Virus record (IMG/VR): IMGVR_UViG_3300029787_000301
Span: 1-25,144 of that record
DNA: 25,144 nucleotides
From: a virus
Strand: one strand, 5' to 3'
Both the position numbers and the translations under genes were made by a program. Below the pieces are notes generated by a model. It was given only the letters and a program-made list of their open reading frames with translations. It had not been told where the DNA came from and did no database searches. Shown piece by piece: positions 2,075-22,835 of this stretch. Numbering within the stretch: the first letter of the stretch is position 1; each line of letters starts with the position of its first letter.

Positions 2075-2247
2075 GCTGCACTCTTCGTTAATTCTTTTTT
2101 AACTGTTGGTTTTTGTTTTTGCCATTCTTGATCTACTAACATGGAGATCACCGCTCCGATTGAACGATGTGAATGACCAGCAATTATTTTTGCTTTGTTG
2201 TACGTTTCCATTTTCGTGGCAACTGATTTATATTTAGTCGTGTCCAT
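2071..2247 (-). CDS. 58-residue ribbon-helix-helix (Arc/MetJ-like) candidate
   Basis: The minus-strand frame from ATG 2247 to TGA 2071 encodes 58 residues. The sequence starts MDTTKYKSVATKMETYNK and continues AKIIAGHSHRSIGAVISMLV. This fits a ribbon-helix-helix fold: a short basic beta strand (KYKSVAT), a first helix, the turn HRSIG and a second helix. Such proteins usually act as dimeric repressors. The start overlaps the helicase stop as TAATG, with GGAG six bases upstream, so it is coupled to the helicase. It is the obvious local candidate to bind palindromic operators such as those at 21049-21073, but that link is a guess. Confidence 0.62.
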   Translation of the reverse strand: MDTTKYKSVATKMETYNKAKIIAGHSHRSIGAVISMLVDQEWQKQKPTVKKELTKSAA

Positions 2248-3716
2248 TAGGACTCCTTTCTTTTTTTAATGGGTTCGATAACCCAGTTCTTAACGTCTTC
2301 CCCCATCACCTCACTTGCGATGTCAATCTTACTACGAAGACTACGCACAATCTTTTCATCAACTGTACCTTCAGCTATCATATCAACGTAAGTAACTTTA
2401 TTTACTTGGCCAATACGATGCGCTCTATCTTCCGATTGCATCCTCTTCTCTAAATCATATGAGTTAGAATAATATACAACAGTATGAGCTGCGGTTAATG
2501 TTAAACCGTAACCACCTGTTGAAGGATTACCAACAAAATATTTTAGTGAAGAATTCTTATCTTGAAATTTTTCAACAATGTCTTGGCGATCTTTATCTTT
2601 TGTATCACCAAAGTATGTAGCAACAGAATCTGCTCCAAACTTTTCAGATAATGTTTGTTGAATTTTTTTAATATCAAATCTATAGTTCGCCCAAATGATT
2701 ACTTTACCATCCACTTCTTCAAGGATGTTTAACAATTCATTCATGCGATTACTTTTTATTTCTTTTGTATCACCATCATCAAACGTTACATGACCACAAG
2801 TTATTTGATGTAAACGTATAAGTGCTGCCAAGGTACTAAGACTTGTCATTGTCTTACCATCCATCTCTGTAATATTAAAACGTCTCATCTCTTCGTAAGC
2901 TTTCACTTGCTCTGATGTAAGAGATATACTTCTTGTTGTATAAATTTTTTCTGGTAGATCCAAACAGTCCTCCTTTAATACCCGGTAAGAGTATTGATCT
3001 ATGATTGTATTTAATTCTGGTAGACGTTGAAATCCTACGACTAGGTTCGTGGACCGTGTTCCAAAATTCCTGCGTACCATAACAGCGTACCTAGATTTAA
3101 ATGCCCAATAGTTTTGCCTAGTAATATTAGGACTTAAAAATTCTAACTGCGCATACACATCCAATGGATTTTTTGTAACAGGAGAACCTGTCATGATGCG
3201 TCTTATCTTAGCTAACTTACTGATTTTTATAGCGTTTTTAGTGCGTGATGCTGTTGGTGTTTTGATAGTTGTTGATTCATCGATCGCTAATAGTGTGCGA
3301 TTTTTGTGTAAGAACTGTGTCACATATTTTATCCCAACACTTCCACTCAATGCTTCAATGTTCATTAACAAAATTCTTAATTTACCATTAGGATAAATTA
3401 TATCTTTTAATTTTTTCTTATCATCTTTTGTCATTTCACTTGGTGCTCTCCATGCAGCTATAGTGTAAGGTATCTCATTTGGTAAATGTGTAGGTATTTC
3501 TCCTCGTTCCCAATTACGATACACACCTTTAGGTGCAATGATTAATGCCGAATCAATCTTACCTTGTAAAAAATATCCACCGATTTCATCTATTAATACT
3601 TTAGATTTACCTGTGCCCATTTCCATAAAAAAAGCATAGTATTCCTTATTATATGATTGTTTCAATGCCTCTAACTGATGAGCATAAGGCTTCGTCTTAA
3701 AATTATATTCACTCAT
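2247..3716 (-). CDS. SNF2-like superfamily 2 DNA helicase
   Basis: This 489-residue protein covers both RecA-like domains of an SNF2/Rad54-type helicase or translocase. Visible motifs in order: the Q-motif region KPYAHQLEAL (about 9-18), Walker A MGTGKS (33-38), motif Ia LIIAPKGVYRNW, motif II LAIDEST, motif III IMTGSPVTKNPLD, and motif VI QSEDRAHRIGQ near the C-terminus followed by VTYVDMIAEGTVDEKI. The length is that of the compact phage type without accessory domains. It likely remodels or unwinds DNA during phage replication or recombination. A sigma70-like promoter lies directly upstream (3753-3725), leaving almost no 5' leader, and no ribosome binding site is visible before the ATG. It heads the leftward operon; the ribbon-helix-helix candidate overlaps its stop. 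Confidence 0.93.
   Translation of the reverse strand: MSEYNFKTKPYAHQLEALKQSYNKEYYAFFMEMGTGKSKVLIDEIGGYFLQGKIDSALIIAPKGVYRNWERGEIPTHLPNEIPYTIAAWRAPSEMTKDDKKKLKDIIYPNGKLRILLMNIEALSGSVGIKYVTQFLHKNRTLLAIDESTTIKTPTASRTKNAIKISKLAKIRRIMTGSPVTKNPLDVYAQLEFLSPNITRQNYWAFKSRYAVMVRRNFGTRSTNLVVGFQRLPELNTIIDQYSYRVLKEDCLDLPEKIYTTRSISLTSEQVKAYEEMRRFNITEMDGKTMTSLSTLAALIRLHQITCGHVTFDDGDTKEIKSNRMNELLNILEEVDGKVIIWANYRFDIKKIQQTLSEKFGADSVATYFGDTKDKDRQDIVEKFQDKNSSLKYFVGNPSTGGYGLTLTAAHTVVYYSNSYDLEKRMQSEDRAHRIGQVNKVTYVDMIAEGTVDEKIVRSLRSKIDIASEVMGEDVKNWVIEPIKKRKES
3049..3063 (+). repeat. CCGTGnnCCA motif copy
   Basis: The plus strand reads gtggaccgtgttcca within the helicase gene, which is coded on the minus strand. 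It is an exact match to CCGTGnnCCA and is very close to the copy at 21464-21478 (gtggtccgtgagcca). Confidence 0.5.
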
Positions 3717-6813: not shown

Positions 6814-6842
6814 GAGATATCATTTTAAACAAAGGAGTGAAA

Positions 6843-7070
6843 ATGAAACTATCAAAAGAAGTATATAATTACATTTTAGAATGTATTGCTTTAGAAGATA
6901 ACAGTTGGAATGATGAGATCGAATTCTCATTTCCAATGAAAGAAGAAGCTATTAAATGGATTAAAGCTACTTGGGAAAAACAAGAAAAAGCTAAATTAAA
7001 AAAATTAAAAGATCCGAAAAAAAGATTAGAAGAGTGGTATGCTAAAAACAATGTGAAGATAGGCATATGA
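6843..7070 (+). CDS. small charged hypothetical protein
   Basis: This gene encodes 75 residues from ATG 6843; the ribosome binding site AAAGGAG (6831-6837) excludes an in-frame GTG at 6837. The first half is acidic and the second a Lys-rich helix (KQEKAKLKKLKD and onward), so it is probably an all-helical protein. No family is recognised. It lies directly behind a strong promoter and its stop overlaps the methyltransferase start as ATGA, so the two are likely coupled. A role in methylation or in countering a host nuclease is possible from position only. Confidence 0.7.
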   Translation: MKLSKEVYNYILECIALEDNSWNDEIEFSFPMKEEAIKWIKATWEKQEKAKLKKLKDPKKRLEEWYAKNNVKIGI

Positions 7071-7942
7071 AATTACAACACTTAGATTTATTTAGTGGTA
7101 TCGGTGGCTTCAGTTTAGGACTTGAAGCCACTGGAGGTTTTGAAACAAAAGCATTTTGTGACATTGAAAAATATCCAAGACAAGTGCTGCAAAAACATTG
7201 GCCTCATGTTAAACAATATGAAGATATAAAGGAATTGAATTATGAAAGACTCAAAGCAGATGGAATTGATTCCATCGACATCATCACTGGAGGATACCCT
7301 TGCCAACCTTTCTCCATCGCAGGTAGAAAAAAAGGTGAAGAAGATCCGAGACACCTCTGGCCAGAGTATTTTAGACTTGTCAAAGAACTCAGACCAACTT
7401 GGGTTATTGGAGAAAATGTTAGTGGACACATTAAACTCGGTCTCGACACCGTTATCAAGGACTTGGAGAGTGAAGACTACTCCGTTAGGCCGTTTAGTAT
7501 TTCAGCTTCGAGCATCGGTGCCAACCACCAAAGAGAAAGAATCTGGATATTGGCGCACTCCAGACGCTCACAGTGGCCGAGGGCCGAGCAGCGAGGAGAG
7601 AATGAAAATGAAACTAGAAAAGAAAATGCCAATCAGTTTGAACGATCAAGTAGCACATCCGAAGTTGATGTGGCCAACACCAACGACGAGAGATTACAAA
7701 GACAGTGGCAAAGCCGTAATCAATTCACACCGAGATTCAATTCTTCCCGTGAGAGTAGCGAAGAAGGACAAGGAACAGTGGGTCAAGGGTGGTGGGAGTC
7801 TGAACCCAACATGGGTAGAGTGGCTCATGGGATACCCAAAAGGGTGGACCGACTTAAATCATTAGGTAATAGTTTGGTACCACAGATACCTTACTACATA
7901 GGGAAGACAATTTTAGAGGTGATGGCGATTGAGAAAAAATAA
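7067..7942 (+). CDS. C5-cytosine DNA methyltransferase
   Basis: This 291-residue protein has the ordered motifs of m5C methyltransferases: motif I HLDLFSGIGGFSLGLE (about 5-20, AdoMet binding), motif IV GGYPCQPFS with catalytic Cys79, motif VI GENV (Glu116), motif VIII NHQRERIWI (about 154-162) and motif X GNSLVPQI (Gly267 onward). The target-recognition region between VIII and X (about 163-262) is low in hydrophobic residues and rich in Arg, Glu, Ser and Asn, and it is exactly where a second protein is encoded in the +1 frame. It probably methylates cytosine in phage DNA to escape host restriction or regulate replication. The start ATG overlaps the upstream stop as ATGA. All catalytic motifs are intact. 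The target is unknown. Confidence 0.93.
   Translation: MKLQHLDLFSGIGGFSLGLEATGGFETKAFCDIEKYPRQVLQKHWPHVKQYEDIKELNYERLKADGIDSIDIITGGYPCQPFSIAGRKKGEEDPRHLWPEYFRLVKELRPTWVIGENVSGHIKLGLDTVIKDLESEDYSVRPFSISASSIGANHQRERIWILAHSRRSQWPRAEQRGENENETRKENANQFERSSSTSEVDVANTNDERLQRQWQSRNQFTPRFNSSRESSEEGQGTVGQGWWESEPNMGRVAHGIPKRVDRLKSLGNSLVPQIPYYIGKTILEVMAIEKK
7242..7865 (+). CDS. overlapping +1-frame protein inside the methyltransferase gene (LNPxWVEWLMG-type phage protein)
   Basis: A 207-residue frame lies wholly within the methyltransferase gene, shifted +1. It has its own ribosome binding site, AAAGGA at 7228-7233, eight bases before ATG 7242. The translation is not random: LSRTWRVKTTPLGRLVFQL, a YWRTPDAHSG segment, WPTPTTRDYKDSG, and a C-terminus LNPTWVEWLMGYPKGWTDL (from residue 187). 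I recall free-standing phage proteins near cytosine methyltransferases with the same order of elements (TW..k.tp.gr..FqL, WpTPta.D, LNP.WVEWLMG.P.GWT). Both frames therefore match known families over the same bases. The last motif is the +1 reading of the methyltransferase motif X region. Function unknown; an accessory to methylation is the obvious guess. Alternative: a chance open frame, unlikely given the motifs. Confidence 0.75.
   Translation: MKDSKQMELIPSTSSLEDTLANLSPSQVEKKVKKIRDTSGQSILDLSKNSDQLGLLEKMLVDTLNSVSTPLSRTWRVKTTPLGRLVFQLRASVPTTKEKESGYWRTPDAHSGRGPSSEERMKMKLEKKMPISLNDQVAHPKLMWPTPTTRDYKDSGKAVINSHRDSILPVRVAKKDKEQWVKGGGSLNPTWVEWLMGYPKGWTDLNH
7571..7592 (+). repeat. long variant of the dispersed GC-rich motif
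   Basis: CAGTGGCC followed two bases later by GGGCCGAGC resembles 11908-11929 (CAGTGGCC, two bases, GGGCCGTGC) at nearly every position. It lies in the dual-coding part of the methyltransferase gene, where both frames constrain the bases, so it is a weaker case than the others. Confidence 0.3.
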
Positions 7943-21113: not shown

Positions 21114-21806
21114 ATGCCTAAAAAGAAACAACCCACTGAACAAGTTTTAAAATTTGATACTATAAGACCTTTTGGTCCTACAATAATGAGAGGCAGAATG
21201 CCTGATTTCATTACTAAAATGCTTGATGATAAAGCAACGGAAATGTTAACGGATAAAAAATTATCTAAAGAGTTTGATCATTCAGGTAACTTAGCAGGTA
21301 ATGTTAAACAAGAAGTTCGTTATCCTCAAGACTGGATGAACACAGAAGAGTTTTTGCCAATGGTACAATTAATTGGTGAGATGGTTAAGAATTATATTTC
21401 TATACCACCAGCAAGTGAAACAATTAAACCAGAGTTTGTAGGTAAGATGGTTATCGAATCTATGTGGTCCGTGAGCCAATATGCAGGAGACTTTAATCCT
21501 TTTCATATACATGAGGGTCAATTGTCAGGTGTGTGTTACTTACGAGTGCCACCAAGTCTACCAGCAGAGTATGCAAAAGAAGATCACTATCCAACAGTAG
21601 GTGATATATGTTGGTTTAATGGTCAAGCTGCTACCTTCAGTGGACATAAGCATCAAGAGTCACCAAAGGTTGGTGATATATTTTTATTTCCAAATTGGTT
21701 AGCACACGGCGTATATCCATTTAGAACACCAAATGAAGAAAGAAGATCGGTATCTTTTAACTTACATTTAATTAAAAAAGACGAGCCACAGCCTTTAGAA
21801 AATTAA
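21114..21806 (+). CDS. 2OG-Fe(II) oxygenase, PF13759-type
   Basis: This gene encodes 230 residues. The family signature is the run FNPFHIHEGQLSGVCYLRVP with His131 and His133, followed by GDIFLFPNWLAHGVYPF (His198) and RRSVSFNL (Arg210/211, the likely 2-oxoglutarate-binding Arg). This is the putative 2OG-Fe(II) oxygenase group common in marine phages. In place of the usual HxD it has HxH, which I recall as normal in this group. It would hydroxylate an unknown substrate using Fe(II), oxygen and 2-oxoglutarate. The AAAGGGA element precedes ATG 21114, and its stop overlaps the next start (TAATG). It heads a rightward operon with two further oxygenases and two glycosyltransferases. Confidence 0.88.
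   Translation: MPKKKQPTEQVLKFDTIRPFGPTIMRGRMPDFITKMLDDKATEMLTDKKLSKEFDHSGNLAGNVKQEVRYPQDWMNTEEFLPMVQLIGEMVKNYISIPPASETIKPEFVGKMVIESMWSVSQYAGDFNPFHIHEGQLSGVCYLRVPPSLPAEYAKEDHYPTVGDICWFNGQAATFSGHKHQESPKVGDIFLFPNWLAHGVYPFRTPNEERRSVSFNLHLIKKDEPQPLEN
21464..21478 (+). repeat. CCGTGnnCCA motif copy
   Basis: The sequence gtggtccgtgagcca in the first oxygenase gene is an exact match to CCGTGnnCCA, encoding Ser-Val-Ser through TCC GTG AGC. It is nearly identical to 3049-3063, more than 18 kb away. Confidence 0.5.
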
Positions 21807-22315
21807 TGCAACATATAGCATCAACTGAATTTGTTATGTATGTCGATAATTTTCTAGATAATGCCACACTTAAATCACTTCAAGATACTTTAGTTAATTT
21901 AAAATACGAAGAAGTAAAAAATCCTGAAGGTCAACTGTATGGTATGAGACACACTTTTGACACAGGTATGCATAAAGATCCTTTACTTAACTTAATTAAA
22001 CAATATTTTTTCCCACATAGAAATTTAGTTCCTTTATCTGTTAGTGCACATATTAGAAATAATAATAAAGAGCCTTTATTTCACATTGATGATGATAAAG
22101 GTAATGTGGCTAATTTTCTTCTTCATGTTAAGGGTGAACCACTTCTTAACAATGGTACTGGTTTTTTAAAAAATAATCAATTAACAACTCACATTGGGTT
22201 TTTAGAAAATAGAGCTTTATTTTTTAATGGAAGTAAAATTTGGCACAGTGATTTACAAGCTTTAGGAGATAGTTCAAAAAGATATACTTTAAATATTTTT
22301 TATAAAGATGAATAA
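21806..22315 (+). CDS. 2OG-Fe(II) oxygenase-like protein, copy 1 of a tandem pair
   Basis: This gene encodes 169 residues. FHIDDD gives the HxD iron ligands (His93, Asp95), IWHSDLQ gives the distal His147, and SSKRYTLNIFY supplies Arg159 for 2-oxoglutarate, so the full HxD...H...R facial triad set is present on a short double-stranded beta-helix. The next gene is a clear paralogue: DNF(L), FFPHRNLVP, NNGTGFL, IGFLENRALFFNG and RYTLNIFY are shared in order. The start overlaps the upstream stop by one base and the end overlaps the paralogue by eight. Substrate unknown. Confidence 0.8.
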   Translation: MQHIASTEFVMYVDNFLDNATLKSLQDTLVNLKYEEVKNPEGQLYGMRHTFDTGMHKDPLLNLIKQYFFPHRNLVPLSVSAHIRNNNKEPLFHIDDDKGNVANFLLHVKGEPLLNNGTGFLKNNQLTTHIGFLENRALFFNGSKIWHSDLQALGDSSKRYTLNIFYKDE

Positions 22316-22835
22316 AGATACAGAATTTGTCATGTACATAGATAATTTTTTATCATCTCAATCTTTATTTTCACTTCAAAATGAAATGATGAAGATAACA
22401 GAGTATAAAAAAACTTCCGATGATGATGGCTATACTTTTGGTTGGAGATATAATTATGATTATGATTTTAATAAAAAACATAATGGCCTTCTTGATGATA
22501 TAAAACATGTTTTTTTTCCACATAGAAATTTAGTTCCCATGCAAGTAAGTGCAAATATAAGATCTCAAAATAATGTAGCTGAAGGAGGATCGCCTTTATT
22601 TCACAAAGATACTTATGGTGATAATGTAGCTAATTTTCTTTTCTACGTAAAAGGTGAACCTTTGTTTAACAATGGCACGGGTTTTTTAAATCAAAATAAA
22701 TTAACTAGTTCTATAGGTTTTTTAGAAAACAGAGCTTTGTTTTTTAATGGCTTACAAGTAGAGCATGGCGATTTACAAGCATTTGGAAATAGTTCTATGA
22801 GATATACTTTAAATATTTTTTATAGGGAGGAGTAA
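22308..22835 (+). CDS. 2OG-Fe(II) oxygenase-like protein, copy 2 of a tandem pair
   Basis: This gene encodes 175 residues, a paralogue of the preceding protein with the same fold markers. The iron ligands are His99 and Asp101 (FHKDTYG), distal His153 (VEHGDLQ) and Arg165 (RYTLNIFY). A five- to six-residue insertion (NNVAEGGSP) before the HxD and an altered region between 35 and 60 (GYTFGWRYNYDYDF) probably change substrate choice. Catalytic residues are kept in both copies, so neither looks decayed. The pair arose by tandem duplication, judging by order, overlap and shared segments. The stop overlaps the next start as TAATG, with a strong AGGGAGGA just before it. Confidence 0.8.
   Translation: MNKDTEFVMYIDNFLSSQSLFSLQNEMMKITEYKKTSDDDGYTFGWRYNYDYDFNKKHNGLLDDIKHVFFPHRNLVPMQVSANIRSQNNVAEGGSPLFHKDTYGDNVANFLFYVKGEPLFNNGTGFLNQNKLTSSIGFLENRALFFNGLQVEHGDLQAFGNSSMRYTLNIFYREE

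Follow-up and report, generated by a model that had tools for sequence, protein, structure and literature searches.

An overlapping reading frame in a phage C5-cytosine methyltransferase gene most likely encodes the target-recognition subunit of a split enzyme

The window analysed here, a stretch of 25,144 nucleotides from a 25-kb uncultivated virus record, harbours a pair of overlapping genes, M and B, at positions 7067–7942 of the plus strand. The outer gene, M (7067–7942), encodes a C5-cytosine methyltransferase (MTase) of 291 aa, which forms the catalytic chain with motifs I–VIII and X, and which matches PF00145 (4.3e-44) and phrog_363 (3.5e-80). Within it, in the +1 frame, lies B (7242–7865 including the stop codon, 7242–7862 without it), a 207-aa protein that begins at an ATG, matches phrog_1008 (2.3e-28) and is proposed below to be a target-recognition subunit. 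The start of B is preceded, at a spacing of 8, by a Shine–Dalgarno-like AAAGGA (7228–7233). A previous sequence-only reading of this DNA had pointed to a 207-codon +1 frame inside an intact methyltransferase gene, to an AAAGGA eight bases before its ATG and to three sequence elements within its translation, and all of these are indeed present.

The neighbours of M are phage replication genes, encoding an AEP-TOTE primase, a UvrD-like helicase and a family A DNA polymerase. Of the genes scanned, none was recognised as a restriction enzyme, which gives M the appearance of an orphan methyltransferase of the phage. Directly upstream, a 77-aa ORF without a confident family (6837–7070) overlaps the start of M by 4 bases (ATGA), an arrangement that may couple the translation of M to that of the ORF. 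Elsewhere in the window, a SNF2-type helicase ORF (2247–3716, minus strand) is found on the strand opposite to the replication genes. Two adjacent ORFs (21806–22315 and 22308–22835) each match the phage endonuclease V family phrog_274 and are adjoined by a 2OG-Fe(II) oxygenase (21114–21806), representing a possible duplication, or a possible cluster for base modification and repair.

As in other C5-MTases (PF00145), motifs I, IV (PCQ), VI (ENV), VIII and X are present in order within M, all on the plus strand. Motif I, DLFSGIGGF (7085–7111), for AdoMet binding, occupies invariant or near-invariant columns of our alignment A4, and motif IV, GGYPCQPFS (7289–7315), with the catalytic cysteine, occupies invariant columns. 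Motif VI, ENV (7412–7420), includes the invariant E116 and N117, motif VIII, HQRERIW (7526–7546), the invariant H154, R156 and R158, and motif X, RVDRLKSLGNSLVPQI (7841–7888), the invariant G267, N268, V271 and P272. Between motif VIII and the approach to motif X, no conserved residues are found in M in alignment A4. This is the position of the target-recognition domain (TRD), and the stretch located there (7571–7795) is predicted to be disordered, with an AlphaFold2 pLDDT below 50 for residues 178–243, where most of the catalytic part exceeds 85. The model of M matches M.HhaI over only about 168 columns (Foldseek, 1.1e-15), and hhalign alignments of M to monomeric MTases stop right after motif VIII. 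The folded TRD and motif IX that monomeric enzymes carry in the same chain are absent from M, and both sequence and model suggest that M is without a TRD of its own.

The layout of B is that of an N-terminal domain of approximately 100 aa, followed by cassettes that start with (W)PTP or a variant thereof, and ending in LNPxWVEWLMGYPxGWTDL. In the window, the N-terminal domain (7242–7550, plus strand, as are all parts of B) lies over motifs IV–VIII of M and includes a predicted hairpin, TWRVKTTPLGRLVFQL, with predicted strands at residues 73–79 and 85–91. Two cassettes follow, WRTPDAHSGRGPSSEERMKMKLEKKMPISLNDQVAHPKLM (7551–7670) and WPTPTTRDYKDSGKAVINSHRDSILPVRVAKKDKEQWVKGG (7671–7793), both of them delineated in alignment A1 and belonging to the exchangeable modules described below. 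They occupy the DNA between motifs VIII and IX, where a C5-MTase has its TRD, and the earlier claim that the overlap covers the target-recognition region is borne out. The C-terminal element, LNPTWVEWLMGYPKGWTDL (7800–7856), has a core that is invariant in B, follows the same pattern as LTPRECARLQGFPDDF of monomeric MTases and, in a number of relatives, is succeeded by motif X in one chain. As had also been noted, it corresponds to the EPNMGRVAHGIPKRVDRL stretch just ahead of motif X, read in the +1 frame. From this short pattern, and from its position next to motif X, the end of B is putatively assigned as motif IX.

That B is a real and conserved protein rather than a chance frame is confirmed from several directions. 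The frame of B remained open in 0 of 20,000 synonymous permutations of the M gene from the window. Amongst homologous genes it is open in 148 of 148, compared with 0.35 expected after synonymous permutation; most of these loci were found via B, meaning that the count is not independent of openness, as the permutation test on the window itself is. The third frame of the same 148 genes is broken, with a longest run of about 12 % of the gene. At loci selected via M alone, a check free of selection by B, the protein was found in the +1 frame in 80 of 80. For loci found via B, +1 nesting was recorded in one set of 94 loci and, with exceptions (e.g. L189), in another of 109. Many loci share sources, and none of these counts is one of independent genomes. 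Shine–Dalgarno-like matches of at least 4 bases are similarly enriched, preceding the start of B at 72 of 81 loci; for positions picked at random within these genes the figure is 411 of 1620.

The search against phages that had been suggested from the sequence returned B matches in 141 phage records (tblastn, E < 1e-3), the best with 37 % identity, and all matches in those annotated records that were read fall in +1 relative to an MTase. Homologues, again in +1, occur in phages of Lactobacillus, Paenibacillus, Escherichia (K1G and N15), Mycobacterium, Rhodobacter and others, with two annotators having listed the protein: as gp56 of Paenibacillus phage Shelly ('g55 internal gene'), and as ORF30 beside ORF31 of Escherichia phage K1G. 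Gene 58 of N15, a classic laboratory phage (NC_001901.1, 44546–45541; L091), contains a nested B in +1 that is unannotated, and the PHROG 1008 label 'DNA methyltransferase' hides the status of B as a second chain. Within sampled bacterial genomes the family is uncommon, being present in 7 of 398 from the phylum of Paenibacillus genome G001 and in 3 of 395 from the phylum of G002.

Constraint on the two frames is divided region by region along the gene. Values of omega were obtained from 53 disjoint pairs, with each substitution classed by its effect in both frames. In the 5′ part belonging to M alone, omega_M is 0.19 and omega_B 1.12, with the 3′ part belonging to M alone, which bears on motif X, giving a comparable 0.11 and 1.07. 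Across the N-domain of B (the first 100 codons of B) both frames are constrained (omega_M 0.28, omega_B 0.58), as they are at the C-terminal end of B (omega_B 0.24, omega_M 0.45). The cassette region in the middle of B displays an omega_B of 0.23 (0.18–0.28) against an omega_M of 1.27 (0.95–1.71), and so the MTase frame is a passenger there. Pairs at 95–99 % identity demonstrate the same division: in the middle region the variable position is the third of B (0.058, vs 0.016 and 0.014 for the others), whereas in the flanks it is the third position of M. The earlier suggestion of a joint evolution of specificity and second protein across the two frames is not upheld, since only B is constrained in the cassettes. 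With both M and B under selection, by omega and by permutation, both are almost certainly produced, in agreement with what had been proposed from the sequence.

It could be argued that the B frame is simply a shadow of codon constraint on M, with no protein made, as the two frames share every nucleotide and conservation of one lends some to the other. This is scarcely credible in light of the permutation results, the omega values by region and the survival of B in 26 non-redundant relatives in which the M frame has been lost. In addition, for divergent pairs (M 43 % identical), +1 identity across the N-domain is 27 %, compared with 18 % after synonymous permutation and 23 % in the +2 frame. 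A chance ORF was likewise considered, and was rejected on the basis of permutation and omega.

The M frame is itself open across the overlap in 148 of 148 genes, compared with 2.2 expected after synonymous permutation of B, indicating that it is kept open over the cassettes; the simplest reason is that it remains so only to reach motif X. It might alternatively be supposed that B contributes motif IX and a docking domain only, with target recognition remaining in M, as is predicted for M.EcoHK31I, for which the predicted TRD is placed on the larger chain (PMC3404938). We consider this improbable, because the corresponding stretch of M is unconstrained and predicted to be disordered, and because it is absent altogether from relatives whose M stops just after motif VIII. 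Specificity therefore very probably resides in B, with the M frame a passenger across the cassette region.

The cassettes themselves are numerous and mobile. Across 330 non-redundant B proteins, 979 'WPTP' cassettes were counted, with 1–7 in each protein and a median length of 41 aa, their boundaries being approximate as they were split by a simple pattern. There are 655 cassette pairs that are at least 70 % identical whilst residing on B proteins with N-domains less than 40 % identical, and like cassettes are found at different ordinal positions of the array in 2223 of 4140 pairs. Furthermore, the set of cassettes differs in 694 of 930 pairs of close B proteins. The cassettes of B thus undergo modular exchange between phages and, as in multispecific C5-MTases, several such exchangeable units are located between motifs VIII and IX.

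A comparison of 205 non-redundant relatives reveals that motifs IX and X are not fixed to one chain. In 162 of these, motif IX is on B and motif X on M, as in the window. In 26, exemplified by L131, L233 and L317, both motifs are on B, and in eight both are on M, some of which retain cassettes on B; L411, L412 and L417, for instance, have IX and X in M with cassettes in +1. The length of M beyond motif VIII varies accordingly, with a median of 7 residues when motif X is on B vs 161 for the arrangement seen in the window, and B reaches further than M in those cases where motif VIII is the last of M. Hence the parts of the enzyme keep the same order on the DNA, and it is the frame carrying them that changes. 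In L131 (2244–3525) and L233 (2212–3496), M terminates just beyond motif VIII and motif X forms an in-frame fusion with B, in a manner resembling M.AquI; a Picosynechococcus pair, L309, was considered as a relative of M.AquI, with nothing useful found. In two further loci, L013 (10–1362) and L043 (24–908), B reads on into the sequence downstream, far beyond where M ends.

Two metagenomic contigs, L316 (1817–2899) and L325 (1604–2863), carry IX and X, together with WPTP cassettes, in the frame of M, with the N-domain still in +1. They were not relied upon as single-chain versions, as one indel could create either of them. The same contigs are what would favour a programmed frameshift that joins motifs I–VIII of M to the cassettes and motif IX in one chimeric chain, if they are not assembly indels. 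Such a mechanism is nevertheless extremely improbable: B has its own start and Shine–Dalgarno-like sequence, and its N-domain, upstream of the cassettes and over motifs IV–VIII, is constrained in the B frame, although a frameshift product would have no need of it.

Searches by family, fold and motif give B no function, and its likeness to motif IX is short. With hhalign, B gave no significant profile match to monomeric MTases at either their TRD or their motif IX, and for so short a match the argument from partition of the motifs between chains matters more. With Pfam, B of the window has no match and 65 family members only scattered weak ones, with no HNH domain in any of them. The AlphaFold2 model of B is poor (mean pLDDT 60), and Foldseek against the PDB returned no significant match. 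A sequence search of the PDB with fused IX–X ends similarly gave weak matches only; DNA methyltransferase 4onj does align at the IX-like and X stretches, but with an E-value of 0.49. These results leave some room for B as a real overlapping protein with an unrelated job, such as an anti-restriction protein or a methyltransferase regulator. We regard this as unlikely, given that the cassettes sit at the TRD position whilst M has no TRD, that 26 non-redundant relatives carry motif X behind the IX-like end in one chain, and that motif IX is sometimes on M. An unrelated protein would not be expected to trade MTase motifs with M in this way.

The relatives also bear upon the origin of B. It had been proposed that B belongs to a free-standing family next to methyltransferases, and that the whole protein was born by overprinting. 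Neither is supported: relatives are nearly always nested, with one clear free-standing copy (L189), and the phage records that list B separately, those of Shelly gp56 and K1G ORF30, place it inside the MTase gene. At L189 (1579–3208, a Flavobacteriales contig), a cassette-less M with a truncated nested B stands immediately before a complete, free-standing B that has cassettes of its own. As M there keeps the truncated nested B, the free-standing protein looks like a second copy. Free-standing B was also considered as the main form of the family, and was rejected after a scan with B of L189 gave 77 of 78 frames nested in +1, the exception, L233, being B fused to motif X. As the cassettes and IX-like end are normal components of an MTase that have shifted into the other frame, the earlier proposal is effectively turned round, and at most the N-domain over motifs IV–VIII was created by overprinting.

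Taken together, M lacks a TRD and motif IX, B has cassettes and an IX-like end, and IX and X trade between the chains, which argues for one split enzyme. We put at roughly 0.85 the probability that M and B, read from the same nucleotides in different frames, are two subunits of a single C5-cytosine DNA methyltransferase, which is probably multispecific. The partition expected of a split MTase, with motif IX on the smaller chain and I–VIII and X on the larger, is seen here by sequence pattern and position rather than by profile significance, and on such sequence grounds B is most likely the target-recognition subunit. M would supply the catalytic domain, with motifs I–VIII and X, and its middle would be an unstructured passenger, translated only so that the ribosome reaches motif X. 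Translation of B would start at its own ribosome binding site inside M, and its N-domain would dock on M. Each of its one to seven cassettes (two in the window) would recognise a DNA target, and its motif IX would complete the fold. More than one cassette would mean more than one target sequence, a situation known from multispecific MTases of Bacillus phages. The assembled enzyme would then methylate the phage genome at cassette-specified sites, most likely as a defence against host restriction, a role to which the orphan setting and the cassette turnover point. The nesting of B in M would, additionally, tie specificity and catalysis into one exchangeable gene.

A broader proposal, which we favour with rather less assurance, is that a whole class of phage 5-methylcytosine enzymes keeps specificity in an overprinted subunit. 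Dual-frame cassettes would pass between phages of different hosts to generate combinatorial multispecific methylation, and the apparent TRD of many annotated phage Dcm proteins would be functionless filler. If so, the annotation of many phage methyltransferases omits one subunit and mistakes another region for the specificity domain, and an annotated gene product expressed alone could look inactive. The 979 cassettes would then offer a natural parts list for decoding 5mC specificities. The locus also provides a clean case of two genes on one sequence with constraint divided region by region, together with a natural experiment in which the outer frame collapses once motif X has moved to the hidden chain.

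With regard to known systems, MTases of this two-polypeptide kind have been described before, whilst the spread over phages, the cassette array, recognition in the nested frame and a passenger outer frame appear undescribed in the open literature, in which no phage description of this overlap was found. Relatives of B are already in a public family under a borrowed name, since B matches PHROG family 1008 ('DNA methyltransferase'), the entry for which gives no separate function and makes no mention of overlap. The multispecific C5-MTases of Bacillus phages SPR, SP-beta and phi3T are orphan enzymes in which a series of short TRD cassettes separates motif VIII from motif IX. They share with the present family this serial arrangement in a phage orphan MTase, but are single chains with their TRDs in the MTase frame. 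The smaller chain of the two-polypeptide enzyme M.EcoHK31I is read in another frame within the gene of the larger chain.

In phage ShiLan, an HNH endonuclease is hidden in another frame of a phage methylase (PMC11855218). As with B, a gene thus lies in another frame of a phage DNA methylase whose own frame is left open; the ShiLan protein, however, is a mobile homing endonuclease in the third frame, and supplies no enzyme parts. M.AquI (alpha/beta, CYCGRG) has motifs I–VIII on its larger chain and IX–X on the smaller, with a distal variable region (PMC3404938). This is the partition seen in the 26 non-redundant relatives with IX and X on B (L131, L233 and L317 amongst them). The window differs in keeping motif X on M, and B differs in possessing an extra N-domain over motifs IV–VIII and a cassette array. 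Also among the nearest characterised enzymes, by description as opposed to by sequence, is M.EcoHK31I, a two-polypeptide C5-MTase recognising YGGCCR (Lee, Kam and Shaw 1995, cited in PMC3404938), whose larger chain has motifs I–VIII, X and the predicted TRD and whose smaller chain has motif IX alone (PMC3404938). The division of motifs is the same as in the window, although M.EcoHK31I is a bacterial restriction–modification enzyme with its TRD predicted in the larger chain, whereas in the present family, which is spread over phages, the pattern of selection assigns recognition to the nested chain, in the form of an array of exchangeable cassettes.
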